Source: Nitrospira sp.
GTDB lineage: Bacteria; Nitrospirota; Nitrospiria; Nitrospirales; Nitrospiraceae
Length of the DNA: 41,355 nucleotides
Reading direction: 5' to 3'
NCBI GenBank assembly: GCA_016788885.1
Contig: JAEURX010000053.1
Span: 1 to 41,355, forward strand
Position 1 is the first letter of the stretch. Every line of letters starts with the position of its first letter. A program made the position numbers and the translations under genes. Positions 25,589 to 30,676 of the stretch are shown here, piece after piece. The notes beneath the pieces are model-generated. The model did not search any database and was not told where the DNA came from. It saw only the letters and a program-made list of their open reading frames with translations.

Positions 25589-25879
25589 TCACTCAGGGAT
25601 CTGCACCTTGATGGAGATCGCCCTACGGTCATCGGTAATCTGCGCCACGATCTTGTCGCCGGTCTTTAATCGTCCGGCCACCACGCCCTCGATTTTGGTT
25701 TCAGGCGTGACCTTCAGGCGTTCTTCGTGACCGGAGAATTCCTTGACGATCAGTTCGCCCTCTTCCCAATACAGGACGTCGGCCTTGATCACCACCGTGG
25801 CGGTAGCCTGGGTGCTGTCAGCGGCTGATGCGGGAATGACTACGGAAAAGAACACATACAATGCGAGAAGAAGTGCCAT
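25589..25879 (-). CDS. Small exported beta-rich protein (DUF5666-like)
   Basis: A 96-residue protein. The ATG at 25879 (GGGAGGAT upstream) opens a signal peptide (MALLLALYVFFSVVIPASA). The mature 75 residues form one beta-barrel-like domain: VVIKADVLYWEEGELIVKE, then GHEERLKVTPETKIEG and KTGDKIVAQITDDRRA, resembling the DUF5666/OB-like secreted modules. Function unknown. It lies at the left edge of the AT-rich island on the same strand. Confidence 0.65.
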   Translation of the reverse strand: MALLLALYVFFSVVIPASAADSTQATATVVIKADVLYWEEGELIVKEFSGHEERLKVTPETKIEGVVAGRLKTGDKIVAQITDDRRAISIKVQIPE

Positions 25880-25955
25880 CACGGATCCTCCCGTTTTATT
25901 TCAGAGTACCTATCCCTGCGAGGCACTGTCAATTGGGGATGCTGGTAGCAATTAT

Positions 25956-27083
25956 CTATTTGGGTTTCAGAAGCAAAATAAGCTCATTTGCATTTTGGCG
26001 AGGTGCTCGTTTAATCCCTGTTTTTGAGAACCTATCGGTGCCGCCAAGAGTGCTGAATTTACTTTCAACTATTTTTTCATTTACTTTGAAACGTTCCTTT
26101 GCGATGACGCGAATAATCTCCCCAGACAGTCCATTCGAACAAATGTGATCCGGAAAAGTAAGAATCGCAACGGCGCCACTCAAAGCCACGGTTTCCAATA
26201 GACTTTTAAGAGCCTCCCGTGATTCGCTTACTCGACTGTATTTGGATGTGGGACGATCTGCAATAGAAGGATAGCGTCCTACCCCCGACACTTCTCCGCA
26301 ACCGCCTCGCGCTATTGTCTCAAGCACATGGTAAAAACGGCTATACTGGACTCCTGAATAGGGGGGATCAATAAAAACTAAATCACCCACTCTCAGACGA
26401 GTTGCAGCTTCGTTTGCATCCCCCACACTTGCTTGCCCCGGCATTTTTGCATGACGTATGGCGAGCGACCATAAACAACTACGGATCCGCTCAACAATGT
26501 CCTTAGCCCAAGCTTCTTGAAGAAACTTTTTAGCAGTTCTAGTCGGCCTGAAAGGCTGCGCAGTATGCCCTGGTGCGGCGACACACCACCCACTCGCCTC
26601 GATCAGGGCTGCAAGCGCAACGGTTCTATTTGGTTCAGTAGATGGCAGAGTCTGCCTAAAGGCATCAATCCAAATGGACTGTTGGGGACTGAAATAGTGC
26701 CCACCATAAGCTTTGGTCACTGGTAGGTCATTTTGAGCATCGCTCCAATCTCTGCATTCTCTCACCGTATGCCAGGTTATTTTATCTGGCCATTTCCAGG
26801 ATTTACCGTTGAAAATACTTTCTGCACGCTTCTGCCAGGGCCCCCATATCAAATTGCCTAGGACCGGTCTATTGCGATGAATGACCGCGCCCGTGAGCAC
26901 AGAGCTAAATTCCTGGATATCGAAGGCACAAACGGGGATTCTCTGCGTCTTAGCTACATGAGATGAGACCGCCCCGGATCCTGCAAAGAGATCTACGAAC
27001 CGCTTTGCATTTCTAGTATTCTTAGCCAAGATGGTGCCCAGTCCATTATTGAGCATCCACCGCTTTGAACCCATATATTTCAT
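25956..27083 (-). CDS. D12-class DNA adenine methyltransferase
   Basis: A 375-residue protein that should transfer a methyl group from S-adenosylmethionine to adenine N6. The start is the ATG at 27083 (MKYMGSKRWML). The order of motifs is that of D12 (alpha-group) enzymes: YMGSK at 3-7, motif I FVDLFAGSG (29-37), and motif IV DPPY (239-242), followed by SGVQYSRFYHVLE. The 200 residues between them, containing several Trp-rich blocks, should hold the target-recognition domain. Its ATG overlaps the stop of the upstream gene (ATGA), so the two are translationally coupled. Target sequence unknown. Base composition is AT-richer than the flanks. Confidence 0.88.
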   Translation of the reverse strand: MKYMGSKRWMLNNGLGTILAKNTRNAKRFVDLFAGSGAVSSHVAKTQRIPVCAFDIQEFSSVLTGAVIHRNRPVLGNLIWGPWQKRAESIFNGKSWKWPDKITWHTVRECRDWSDAQNDLPVTKAYGGHYFSPQQSIWIDAFRQTLPSTEPNRTVALAALIEASGWCVAAPGHTAQPFRPTRTAKKFLQEAWAKDIVERIRSCLWSLAIRHAKMPGQASVGDANEAATRLRVGDLVFIDPPYSGVQYSRFYHVLETIARGGCGEVSGVGRYPSIADRPTSKYSRVSESREALKSLLETVALSGAVAILTFPDHICSNGLSGEIIRVIAKERFKVNEKIVESKFSTLGGTDRFSKTGIKRAPRQNANELILLLKPK

Positions 27084-27949
27084 GATCGAGAGGAGATCGA
27101 GCCAATCCCACCTTGTTCGATCAGCTGAAAATTGGTGAAGCCAGCCGTCCATGCAGGATTGCGATGAACTTTCCAAAAACGATTAGAGTCTCCAAGAGCT
27201 TCATTGACAAAGTTTCGAAATCTCACGATTCTGTGGTAGGCCAGTATTTGTATCGCCTCTACGTCCGGAAACTTTCCCTTTTGCGGAGATGGAGGCGAAT
27301 CAAAATGCATACTCGAGATAAATGCAATTCTATCCTTGAGGATTGCTTCGCTCAGCGGAGAAAACTTGGGAATAAAAGAGGATAGATGATCGCAATAATT
27401 GGCCGCATCTCGATGTTTAATCTCTGAGATAACAGAATCAGACTCCTCAAGGTTATTCGTGAACAATGGATCCGCAGAAAAGCTTGGAACTTCCTTAATT
27501 AATTTCCAATAAAATTGATGCTCACGGTCGCCACCCTGCTTCGCCCGAAATGAACATTTGCCCCTCTTCCCATCAAACTCAAGACAGGCTATCTTTTTCA
27601 CTCTGAAGCTCTGAAAGTGGCCAAGCAAATGAGCAAACGCGCGCACGCAGTAATGACTCGCATAGTAGGCACCCACAGAAGACCAAATTGGACTAGCCTT
27701 GGTAAGGGACGCAGAAATGAGAAAACTATGAACGGCCCGCAGCCACATATCCACAGCAGCCGTTGCAAACAACTTAAAGTTTTCCGGCTCGAGATCCACT
27801 GGATCGCCACATCTTTTCCTAAACCATTTCTCAACAGACTTTGATAGACTGTCGGGAGGCGGAAACGACTTAGCTGCTGCTTGGGTTTTTAACGGTTCAA
27901 AAGTGTAACAAATATGCTCTCTGAGATTTGCATTAATATGAAAACTCAT
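27080..27949 (-). CDS. Unrecognised protein of the modification island
   Basis: A 289-residue protein starting MSFHINANLREHICYTF at 27949 (GGAG 10 bases upstream), overlapping the DGQHR gene by 17 bases and the methyltransferase by 4. I do not recognise a family. A helical stretch at 91-110 (SSVGAYYASHYCVRAFAHLL) resembles the core helix of HEPN-type domains, but the canonical R-x4-6-H is not evident. The middle (KKIACLEFDGKRGKCSFR) may be a beta hairpin. Its position between a DGQHR protein and a DNA methyltransferase suggests a part in the same system. Confidence 0.7.
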   Translation of the reverse strand: MSFHINANLREHICYTFEPLKTQAAAKSFPPPDSLSKSVEKWFRKRCGDPVDLEPENFKLFATAAVDMWLRAVHSFLISASLTKASPIWSSVGAYYASHYCVRAFAHLLGHFQSFRVKKIACLEFDGKRGKCSFRAKQGGDREHQFYWKLIKEVPSFSADPLFTNNLEESDSVISEIKHRDAANYCDHLSSFIPKFSPLSEAILKDRIAFISSMHFDSPPSPQKGKFPDVEAIQILAYHRIVRFRNFVNEALGDSNRFWKVHRNPAWTAGFTNFQLIEQGGIGSISSRS

Positions 27950-29300
27950 CTTGCACTTTACTCCGAAATTTCTCACGTCCAAACGCTGCCCGATCGGCTA
28001 ACGCCTCTGCCTTCAGTCTAGCAACACTCTCTGTAGAAGTTGCTGCCGCCCACAAAAGATCGCGAAATCTTGAAACGCCACCGCTACCAAGAAATCCCTT
28101 TTCTTTAAATTTAGGTTTGGGCAAGAACTTCTCCCGCTCCAGAAGTCCTCCACGCCTCATTAGGTCGTGCAGGAACCTAATAAGAGTCTCATGGCTCCTA
28201 TCTGAAATCAGTTGAAATTCGTTACGCTTCAACTTTGATATACAAACCGGAAGCAAGGTAAGAAATGAAACAAGGACTCGCCCCTGATATGCCACGTTGT
28301 CAGGGTCAAGCGATTCCCCTTCGCTCACTTCCTGTTTTCGTCCCGTCGCTTCTAGCCAGGCATCTAAGCACTGCGCCAAGAATTCTGTCTGTTGATCTAG
28401 ATTGTCAATACCGCATTCCCTCATGATTGGAATTACTTCTTCGATAGCAGAATTGAGAGTCGCAAGCGCTACTACATCCGGAACGCCATACTTGATCCCA
28501 GGTATCTGAATCATTCCCACGAGCGGGCCTGTTTCAAGCATTAGCCTTCTCCCGAGATCCTGCGCTCGCTCCTTATCGTCAAGAGGGGCGCGACTGCCTC
28601 TGGCAGTAGGAAAGAGATCGGCGACCAAGGATTTGTCAACCTTCTTCTGATTGAAATTAACATCAATAAAAATTTGAGCCTGGCGCCTCGGTGCTTCATT
28701 TGGCGGGTCAAGGTCAAGAAAAATTTCAGCTGGAATATCCCACACTGCTTTTCTGTTTTCTTCTTGAAGGATCCTCAGCGCAAGGAAAGCACCGTTAATT
28801 CTATGCTGACCGTCTATTACAGAAAAACTAAGCGCTTTGTCTTCCTCATCAAATGTTAACGTTGCGGCTTCCTGCTTGTCCTCGAGCGGCTTAACCAATG
28901 CACCATTTACATGCAGCAGAACGTTTGAAAAAGTAGGGTACTCACTATTCTGAAAGCCAACGACCCTTTGCACCTTCGGAGGCCATTCTCTTCCCGGCTC
29001 TAGTTTTTTAGGCTCGTAAATGTTTCGAAAATACTTATCAATGAGCTTCGGAGCATCAACAATCTCTTTCTGAAGCAAATAAGCAGCTATCTTTGCAACC
29101 CGCTTCCAATCCAGCGAACGCTGAATTGAACGAACCTTATCAGCATCATGTCTTGGGGTATGTGGCTTTCCCGGCCACCATTGCATTAGCTTCTCAACAT
29201 TTAATGCTGTAAGGCAGTGACGAGTCTCTTGTAAATCTGCAGGCGCAAAAGGATTCATTGGTACAATGACTGAAATTCTTTGAATAGAACGTTTGCTCAT
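27933..29300 (-). CDS. DGQHR-domain protein (DndB-like)
   Basis: A 455-residue protein. The central block FSVIDGQHRINGAF (159-172) is the DGQHR motif shared by DndB and related proteins of DNA phosphorothioation and 7-deazaguanine DNA-modification clusters, with IFIDVNFNQKKVDKSLVADL about 40 residues later, as in that family. The family fold is related to ParB/sulfiredoxin. The N-terminal 150 residues and the C-terminal helical region (GIDNLDQQTEFLAQCLDAWL) are less familiar. No dnd or dpd partner genes are present here; instead it leads a three-gene unit ending in an adenine methyltransferase. The start is the ATG at 29300 with GAGGG upstream. Confidence 0.82.
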   Translation of the reverse strand: MSKRSIQRISVIVPMNPFAPADLQETRHCLTALNVEKLMQWWPGKPHTPRHDADKVRSIQRSLDWKRVAKIAAYLLQKEIVDAPKLIDKYFRNIYEPKKLEPGREWPPKVQRVVGFQNSEYPTFSNVLLHVNGALVKPLEDKQEAATLTFDEEDKALSFSVIDGQHRINGAFLALRILQEENRKAVWDIPAEIFLDLDPPNEAPRRQAQIFIDVNFNQKKVDKSLVADLFPTARGSRAPLDDKERAQDLGRRLMLETGPLVGMIQIPGIKYGVPDVVALATLNSAIEEVIPIMRECGIDNLDQQTEFLAQCLDAWLEATGRKQEVSEGESLDPDNVAYQGRVLVSFLTLLPVCISKLKRNEFQLISDRSHETLIRFLHDLMRRGGLLEREKFLPKPKFKEKGFLGSGGVSRFRDLLWAAATSTESVARLKAEALADRAAFGREKFRSKVQDEFSY

Positions 29301-29508
29301 CGCATCAGCCCTCGACCGATAAAAATGCCTCGCTTGATGGGCACAGGCAATATCGGCGTGTCAATTACGTGAACAAGCAAAAGAAATCAACCAAACACTT
29401 AGTTGATCACCAATGGCATGTCATATTTTGCGCCGCTCTACAATTCGCTCACCTTAACCTAGAGCAGAGTTCGCAACCGCAGTAACGTGATATTTGTGCA
29501 TGATCGAA

Positions 29509-29760
29509 ATTGAAAACCGACTACCCTGCAATCCCTTACTCTACGCCAAGAGGAGGTTTAACTTCGTCCCAACTACGGAAGTCCAACGAGGACTTTCCCA
29601 AGCCGCGAGTCAAAATCTATTGCTCCTTCCACTTATCTCACTCTCCTCAAGGGATGGCGTGATTCCGTTCCCAACTGCGCGCGTCCAACGAGGCCCTTCC
29701 GAGGGCGCGCGCGAAATCTAATGCTCCATCCACTTTCTCGTACCCGCTCCAAGGAGTGAC
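29509..29760. repeat. Degenerate tandem repeat array, period about 101 bp
   Basis: Two clear units share TCCCAACT (29567 and 29669), GTCCAACGAGG (29581 and 29683), an AAATCTAnTGCTCCnTCCACTT box (29613 and 29714), and a closing CTCnAAGG. A third, more degenerate copy of the AAAA...CTCC and CCAAG boxes lies upstream from about 29509. Offsets are 101-102 bases. Unit 1 contains a hairpin AAGTCC-AACGA-GGACTT; unit 2 has GCGCGCG arms around the same GTCCAACGAGG. The rest of 29301-29782 has no gene. The array sits at the right edge of the AT-rich island. Confidence 0.65.
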
Positions 29761-29782: not shown

Positions 29783-30676
29783 CTAACACTTCGATCCGTC
29801 CATCCGGCAGGCTTCCGCCCGGTCGGTGAACCCTGAGTTGCGCAGGCTCTCATAGACGTGTTGCTGCCGTTCCATCTCACGATCATGGGCAGTGCTCTCC
29901 CGCCCGTCCGTCGCGTACCCGCCGCCGGAATTGCGGCGTGGCTGGCGCGCCGCCAGCACCTTGCGCACCTCGGTTTCATAGTAGCCACGCGTTTGCGGGT
30001 CAGGATCCTTCTGATAGCAGGTGGTGAGAAACTTCCGGCCTTCGGCGTCGTGGCCCAGCGCATAGTGGGCAAACCCGACGTTGCAGAAGGCGTTCGGCGT
30101 GGCAGGATCGAGCTTCAGAACCTTCTCTGAATCGTCCAGCGCGGCCTGGAACTGTTCATGGCGGCTATAGATCTCCGCGCGAGACTTATAGGCGCCGACA
30201 TGATTGGCATCGAGACGGATGGCAGCGGTGAAGTCCTCAGCGGCCTCACGGTCTTTGCCTTGATACTCCCGCACATAGGTCAAGCCTCGTCCATAGTAGG
30301 CCTCCGCTGTCGGGCGTAGGCGAATCGAGGTCGAGTAGTCGTCCAGCGCCTGCGGAACCTGGCCTAGCATCTTGCCGGCCTTTGCACGGAGCAGGTAGGC
30401 GTCGGCCTTGTTCGGTACGCGGCGGATCACTTCCGACGCGTCCTGCAGCGCGTGCGCATAGGACCCGAGAAAATAATGACAGCGGGCACGCGCGAGGTAG
30501 AGGCCGGTCTGGTTGCGCTTTCGCTCGAGAACATCGGTGAGCAGTTGGAGGGTTTGCTGATTGCCTTTGCCGTTGGCTTCGCAGTAGGCGTCGACGGATG
30601 GCTCTCCGCAAGCGGCTACCCAGAGCACAGAACAAAGCGCCACAAAACTTCCTACGCGCCGACCGGCTGGTCCCAT
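29783..30676 (-). CDS. TPR-repeat lipoprotein
   Basis: A 297-residue protein. The signal peptide ends in the lipobox VAAC (Cys at about 23). Five or more TPR-like helix pairs follow (GLYLARARCHYFLGSYAHAL, DAYLLRAKAGKMLGQVPQAL, AEAYYGRGLTYVREYQG). The last 60 residues are polar and end with a Cys. TPR lipoproteins act as scaffolds at the outer membrane; the partner is unknown. The stop is adjacent to the tandem-repeat array. Confidence 0.82.
   Translation of the reverse strand: MGPAGRRVGSFVALCSVLWVAACGEPSVDAYCEANGKGNQQTLQLLTDVLERKRNQTGLYLARARCHYFLGSYAHALQDASEVIRRVPNKADAYLLRAKAGKMLGQVPQALDDYSTSIRLRPTAEAYYGRGLTYVREYQGKDREAAEDFTAAIRLDANHVGAYKSRAEIYSRHEQFQAALDDSEKVLKLDPATPNAFCNVGFAHYALGHDAEGRKFLTTCYQKDPDPQTRGYYETEVRKVLAARQPRRNSGGGYATDGRESTAHDREMERQQHVYESLRNSGFTDRAEACRMDGSKC

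Follow-up and report, generated by a model that had tools for sequence, protein, structure and literature searches.

What is the role of a compact island of three genes, encoding a DGQHR-domain protein, a middle protein of no recognized family and a D12-class methyltransferase, in a genome of the genus Nitrospira? The island lies on contig JAEURX010000053.1 of assembly GCA_016788885.1 (3.9 Mb, 75 contigs), of which a stretch of 41,355 nucleotides, referred to here as the window, was analysed. Our reading is that the three genes form a mobile anti-phage cassette resembling a restriction-modification system and using a ribonuclease (RNase) as effector. This statement as a whole is given a probability of about 0.5. 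A defence function of the cassette is considered likely, and the mechanism as specified below, in which DNA methylation would gate the RNase, is held tentatively. The fullest version is somewhat more doubtful: methylation would be sensed by a ParB-type nucleoside triphosphatase (NTPase) and RNA cut by a non-canonical HEPN protein, in two lineages with exchangeable methyltransferases.

The DGQHR gene overlaps the middle gene by 17 bases, and the middle gene overlaps the methyltransferase gene by 4 bases. An earlier note, made from the letters of the window alone, had read these overlaps as the mark of one unit and had described the island as richer in A+T than its surroundings. The coordinates were confirmed, and the composition was found to be as described. 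G+C content was 45-48% in the three genes and 56-63% in the flanks; measured along the window, it was 45-50% between 25.5 and 29.5 kb and about 57-63% on either side. G+C at third codon positions (GC3) was 0.417, 0.431 and 0.434 in the three genes versus 0.69-0.78 in seven neighbouring genes.

The site of insertion was delimited by comparison with sister genomes. A TPR-like gene and, downstream of it, a small gene were neighbours in ten same-genus loci, with a gap of 0.2-4.2 kb between them. In pairwise blastn of the window against these ten loci, homology ended near 29567-29620 and restarted near 25937; the acquired segment is slightly longer than the three genes. In the sister genomes the site was either empty or held other cargo. 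Acquisition by transfer, as the note had suggested, is shown by base composition together with the empty site. A housekeeping methyltransferase of the lineage with matching composition, which the note had named as the alternative, is ruled out by the foreign composition and by the empty site in sister genomes. A separate observation concerns a G+C-rich repeat of about 40 bases (CCTCGTTGGAC...AGTTGGGA), of which at least two copies were present in the window at 29580-29740. The same repeat occurred at six further places in the genome and at the insertion site in most sister loci.

Three sister loci held other cargo at the site (L061, L062 and L064). An XhoI-type endonuclease with an Eco57I-like methyltransferase was found in G224 and a DUF4238 protein in G129. 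The cargo of G094 (L062 2600-5453) comprised an unassigned gene, an AAA ATPase gene and a small unassigned gene, of which only the ATPase gave Pfam or weak PADLOC matches; these three genes are a candidate for another defence unit. A DUF4238 protein gave E. coli protection against T7 (PMC9122126). Because an XhoI-type system, a DUF4238 protein and AAA ATPase cargo all occur there, the site between the two conserved genes of the genus is a small hotspot for defence genes.

The window-like cassette lineage was designated type A, and a second lineage with the same gene order was designated type B. Among 295 Nitrospirota genomes, the middle protein was found at full length in two, the genome of the window and G183, which belongs to the same class (46% identity) and whose cassette carried all three genes in the window's order. 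When 84,980 species genomes were scanned with the DGQHR pair, 19 loci were recovered, at 56-69% identity. L006 and L020 were cut by contig ends and were left out of the gene-order count. In every remaining locus the middle gene directly followed the DGQHR gene, as a decayed fragment in L013. A methyltransferase of the window's type came next in 14 loci, making, with the window, 15 complete cassettes from nine phyla (Nitrospirota, Patescibacteria, Verrucomicrobiota, Ignavibacteriota, Acidobacteriota, Thermodesulfobacteriota, Elusimicrobiota, Planctomycetota and Armatimonadota). A search for the three-gene order in other genomes, proposed in the note as a check, thus found the genes together and in unchanged order across many distant genomes, and the conserved order bears out their reading as one unit. 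An IMG/VR contig (L024) carried the DGQHR and middle genes, with the contig end just beyond. Pairwise identity averaged 63% among DGQHR proteins, 46% among middle proteins and 51% among methyltransferases. The identities of the DGQHR and middle proteins were correlated (Spearman 0.74 over 105 pairs, which are not independent).

The spread of the cassette is patchy. Among 347 Acidobacteriota genomes drawn, only the centre genome was matched, and the same held for a draw of 343 Planctomycetota genomes; an Acidobacteriota search with the methyltransferase profile was uninformative because the centre genome's own copy is decayed. Plasmid and phage collections searched with the window's middle and DGQHR proteins gave no match, nor did one viral_contigs scan with the middle protein. 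An apparent match in G053 (L004), which covered 51 residues and whose reading frame held two stops, was discarded as chance. In the tree of DGQHR proteins, that of the window grouped with Patescibacteria, Verrucomicrobiota, one Planctomycetota and the viral contig (96/93), and the other Nitrospirota copy stood apart from it with Syntrophales and Elusimicrobia (97/96). The cassette is judged to move laterally because this tree conflicts with taxonomy. In one Patescibacterium (L005 8597-16917) the cassette appeared, by eye, to sit between the S10 and L3 ribosomal protein genes, which would be an unusual location for mobile cargo.

Family searches agreed with the note's description of the three products as a DGQHR/DndB-like protein, a D12 methyltransferase and an unrecognized protein. 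The DGQHR protein falls within the DGQHR domain family, matching TIGR03187 with an expect value (E) of 4.9e-24 and 85.5 bits (curated cut-off 58.85); it also matched DndB PF14072 (E 1.8e-10, 40.9 bits, cut-off 29.1). It was 53-67% identical to 18 relatives. The DGQHR pentapeptide, at residues 163-167, was kept in all 19 type A and all 9 type B proteins. A model of the protein had a predicted local distance difference test score (pLDDT) of 72.6 and a predicted template modelling score (pTM) of 0.57. The nine top structural matches of this pTM 0.57 model, lying in its N-terminal half (residues from about 12 to 225), were all of the ParB family (Z 4.5-5.7), including PadC, ParB-CDP, KorB and Noc. 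ParB-fold proteins bind and hydrolyse nucleoside triphosphates, and some nick DNA. The modelled fold agrees with the literature, in which DGQHR and DUF262 domains are assigned to the ParB/Srx fold (PMC4619093), and a ParB-like NTPase fold is predicted for the N-terminal half of the protein.

The middle protein gave no family match in Pfam, NCBIfam, PHROGs or PADLOC, and its 18-member family searched against Pfam gave neither HEPN nor any other consistent match. An AlphaFold2 model of this family had a pLDDT of 84.7 and a pTM of 0.87. With VIA-align, ranks 1-9 were all HEPN proteins at Z 5.5-8.0 (4nqf 8.0, 1ufb 7.8, sacsin HEPN 7.7, 1wol 7.1, Csm6 6.6, AbiV 5.5), and rank 10 was a Roquin domain at Z 5.1. 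Foldseek searches of the PDB (E-values above 1) and of viral models gave no support, so that HEPN was supported by VIA-align only. The case lies in the agreement among the matches, as such Z values are by themselves no proof for a helical fold. Helix 2 of the model spans residues 87-108 and helix 3 residues 176-185. H144, invariant in 18 of 18 proteins, lies in the insert between them, where the AbiV/AF0298 variant has its alternative histidine. R180 and Y185 in helix 3 and H188 after the helix also occupy invariant columns across the 18 proteins. Most HEPN domains are RNases. In AbiV and AF0298-like HEPN proteins, an insert histidine between helices 2 and 3 may replace the lost motif histidine (PMC3710099). 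Judged from the model, the middle protein is likely to have a HEPN fold, with a putative non-canonical active site, and the fold and conserved residues point to an effector role, probably on RNA. The note had suggested that restriction, if any, may reside in this protein, and the resemblance of the model to HEPN domains lends support to that suggestion.

The main rival explanation is that the DGQHR protein, as a ParB/Srx protein comparable to GmrS or Osa, cleaves or nicks DNA that lacks methylation, under nucleoside triphosphate control, the HEPN-like protein being a non-catalytic specificity or assembly subunit. We consider it unlikely. Members of the ParB/Srx fold with nuclease and NTPase activities are known, and the DGQQR motif of GmrS has been equated with DGQHR (PMC4619093); the non-canonical HEPN motif of the middle protein would also fit. 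A candidate nuclease was found at some loci: a DUF4357, GIY-YIG-like gene adjoined four type A cassettes, upstream in one and downstream in three. The two such genes tested (L005 and L009) matched PADLOC PDC-S14 at E 4e-82 and 3e-90, and a gene of this kind may add a deoxyribonuclease (DNase) to some cassettes. It is, however, absent from most loci. With its invariant His and Arg, the middle protein seems to have an active site, and the HEPN protein of the analogous MAE_28990 operons keeps an intact catalytic motif (PMC3710099).

The third gene product belongs to the D12 class, with a match to PF02086 at E 1.4e-15 (58.1 bits, cut-off 22). It was the only cassette gene clearly recognized by PADLOC, as a type II methyltransferase (E 5.8e-22). 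The protein carries motif I (DLFAGSGA), motif IV (DPPY) and the family signature PGHTAQPF; DPPY and PGHTAQ were invariant among 15 relatives. On these motifs, it is predicted to be an N6-adenine DNA methyltransferase whose mark would be N6-methyladenine. At type A locus L016, a convergent Dam-like D12 enzyme stood in place of the window-type methyltransferase; at L017, also type A, two other D12 enzymes lay about 1.9 and 8 kb downstream. Seven type B loci carried a Dam-like FLKW[AP]GGK methyltransferase instead of the window's kind, convergent in two of them. The DGQHR and middle genes thus stayed paired while the methyltransferase was swapped at one type A locus and at seven loci of type B, as would be expected if the methyltransferase gives the mark and the other two proteins the response.

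Type B was reached by way of the methyltransferase. It has the same gene order, a DGQHR protein of about 505-520 amino acids (aa) and a different middle protein of about 420 aa. The DGQHR profiles of the two types are related (hhalign probability 95.9, E 5e-9), and profile comparison of the middle proteins showed no homology. Both kinds of middle protein have the invariant motifs YY, Hx3W and Rx4Y in the same order (1 of 20,000 label shuffles); the motifs were picked after looking, and the shared order is suggestive only. Type B was present on a plasmid of Rhizobium tumorigenes, next to transposition genes, on the Zymomonas mobilis ZM4 plasmid pZZM405 (L081 7484-14775) with DarT and macro-domain (DarTG-like) genes downstream, and also on IMG/VR contigs. 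Its neighbours were P2-like portal and terminase genes in L072 and L085 and an adjacent integrase in L073, L074 and L088. The P2-like region beside the portal gene is well established as a hotspot for defence genes (PMC9122126, PMC9519451). E. coli genomes held no near relative of a type B cassette. After the cassette on the Rhizobium tumorigenes plasmid, a gene for a 503-aa protein of no known family was noted (L067 13228-14739). In L090 (6626-12371) the DGQHR gene of a type B cassette was broken, and an apparent IS66-type transposon lay between it and the middle gene.

A defence role is considered likely for the cassette because defence cargo occupies the same site in relatives and because cassette relatives lie in prophages and on plasmids; the note had proposed to look for a location in defence islands. 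The same sites bear on two further explanations. The cassette might act in regulation or epigenetics only: the methyltransferase and DGQHR protein would set a methylation pattern with DndB-like autoregulation, the middle protein would assist, and no restriction would take place. DndB is reported to regulate Dnd in an ATP-dependent manner (PMC4507180, PMC10853773), and a unit without a classical nuclease would suit such a role. The patchy spread, with full-length middle proteins in 2 of 295 Nitrospirota genomes and the centre genome alone in each of the two draws, argues against regulation, as do the prophage, plasmid and hotspot sites and the exchange of methyltransferases, and we regard this explanation as improbable. 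The cassette might instead be a selfish addiction unit, in which methylation or the DGQHR protein would hold a HEPN toxin in check, a cell that loses the cassette would die, and defence would be a by-product. Toxins are common among HEPN proteins (PMC3710099), and the unit is compact, mobile and often found on plasmids or prophages. Three large genes are, however, more than a toxin-antitoxin pair needs, and addiction is considered improbable; present data do not separate it from defence, and restriction-modification systems show both.

In the preferred reading, that of a defence cassette with an RNase effector, the D12 enzyme would methylate the adenine of a short site in the host's DNA, as its family suggests. 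The DGQHR protein, as a ParB/DndB-like NTPase, would load on or survey DNA and respond to unmarked sites; its fold and the gene order are consistent with this. It would then release or activate the HEPN-fold protein, which, by its fold and conserved residues, may cleave RNA and halt the infected cell. Several points weigh against this scheme. The model of the DGQHR protein is mediocre (pLDDT 72.6, pTM 0.57), and nickases and repressors also occur among ParB-fold proteins. The best HEPN Z value, 8.0, is within reach of helical bundles by chance, and sequence and profile searches of the middle protein detected no HEPN homology. The canonical Rx4-6H motif is not intact: R180 is present, the residue at +5 is Tyr in 18 of 18 proteins, and the conserved His closest to the motif lies at +8. 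The Dam-like methyltransferase on the Z. mobilis plasmid left no motif of its own in the ZM4 methylome, which contained two type I motifs and GANTC only (PMC8432527); the enzyme may be silent, absent from the methylome strain, or masked.

Table 1. Features of the cassette, its surroundings and its relatives (positions refer to the window unless a locus is given).
Feature	Positions	Strand	Remarks
DGQHR-domain protein	27933-29300	minus	455 aa, ATG start, predicted sensor/NTPase
Middle gene	27080-27949	minus	289 aa, ATG start, predicted HEPN-fold effector
D12 methyltransferase	25956-27083	minus	375 aa, ATG inside ATGA, predicted self-marking enzyme
Acquired segment between two conserved genus genes, approximate extent	25938-29567	none	pairwise blastn, ten sister loci
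Conserved flanking gene, TPR repeat by inspection	29783-30676	minus	outside cassette; near-full-length orthologues 75-86% identical in 15 same-genus genomes
Conserved flanking small gene	25589-25882	minus	outside cassette; 78-88% identity in ten same-genus loci
DUF4357 gene beside cassette	L005 9131-9979		
DUF4357 gene beside cassette	L008 13399-14271		
DUF4357 gene beside cassette	L009 13318-14133		
DUF4357 gene beside cassette	L010 5284-6156		

If the reading is true, the effector controlled by a DNA methylation mark would here be directed at RNA, in place of a DNA nuclease, and the cassette would offer a minimal three-gene system for testing this. A branch of DGQHR/DndB-like proteins would gain a role outside phosphorothioation, and a likely fold would be available for a protein family without a match in Pfam, PHROGs, NCBIfam or PADLOC. 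The two lineages and the exchangeable methyltransferase make the mark-reading protein directly testable.

Comparison with known systems began with Dnd, which the DGQHR protein resembles in its matches to PF14072 and TIGR03187 and from which it differs in reaching 51 bits against TIGR04172, where the cut-off is 450. The note had remarked that the usual Dnd partners were missing; the genome was found to contain no DndC, and DndD gave only a weak sub-threshold match on another contig. The Dnd reading was dropped because of these missing partners. DpdB of the Dpd system is a ParB-like ATPase (PMC12839542), and both DGQHR types gave weak PADLOC DpdB matches (E 0.002 and 0.001). The cassette differs in that no DpdA or DpdC was seen adjoining its genes, no DpdA search having been made, and in its mark, predicted to be N6-methyladenine. 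This reading was dropped because the DpdB scores were marginal. The type IV systems GmrSD and BrxU share a related ParB/Srx fold and a DGQQR motif (PMC4619093), with a BrxU structural match at Z 2.7. The cassette has no HNH domain and possesses a methyltransferase, which type IV systems lack; GmrSD_N reached only E 0.1, below the cut-off, and no HNH match was found. No known restriction endonuclease family was detected in the three cassette genes with Pfam, PADLOC or PHROGs, the DUF4357 neighbour being present in four relatives only. AbiV and AF0298 resemble the middle protein in its predicted fold, in the conserved His between helices 2 and 3 and in the loss of the motif His (PMC3710099). They differ from it in that no sequence similarity was found, and in its beta insert, its length of about 290 aa and its methyltransferase and DGQHR partner genes.

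The closest precedent is the MAE_28990 HEPN family, which was described in 2013 in an operon with ParB nuclease and DNA methylase genes (Anantharaman et al., PMC3710099). The same three roles are present: the HEPN gene comes immediately after a gene of the ParB fold, and a DNA methylase accompanies them. Such a row of genes, for a C5-methylase, GmrSD_N/DUF262, HEPN_MAE_28990 and a Vsr nuclease, was confirmed in another genome of the same taxonomic family (L098 4324-7673). In these operons the ParB gene is of the DUF262/GmrSD_N kind, the HEPN protein belongs to PF18737 and keeps the Rx4-6H motif intact, and the methylase of L098 is a C5-cytosine enzyme, whereas the cassette has a protein of the DGQHR/DndB branch, an unrecognized HEPN-like family and a D12 adenine methylase. 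PF18737 gave no match in any of the 18 middle proteins (E up to 5) and none in the cassette's own genome. The cassette was not described in the open literature searched, subscription papers and most preprints lying outside that search. The note's suggestion of an undescribed module is to be qualified in one respect: the HEPN-ParB-methylase type of operon had already been noted in 2013 for other families (PMC3710099). By analogy, the cassette would work like a MAE_28990 operon without being a member of that group, as a variant of the HEPN-ParB-methylase theme built from three other families.

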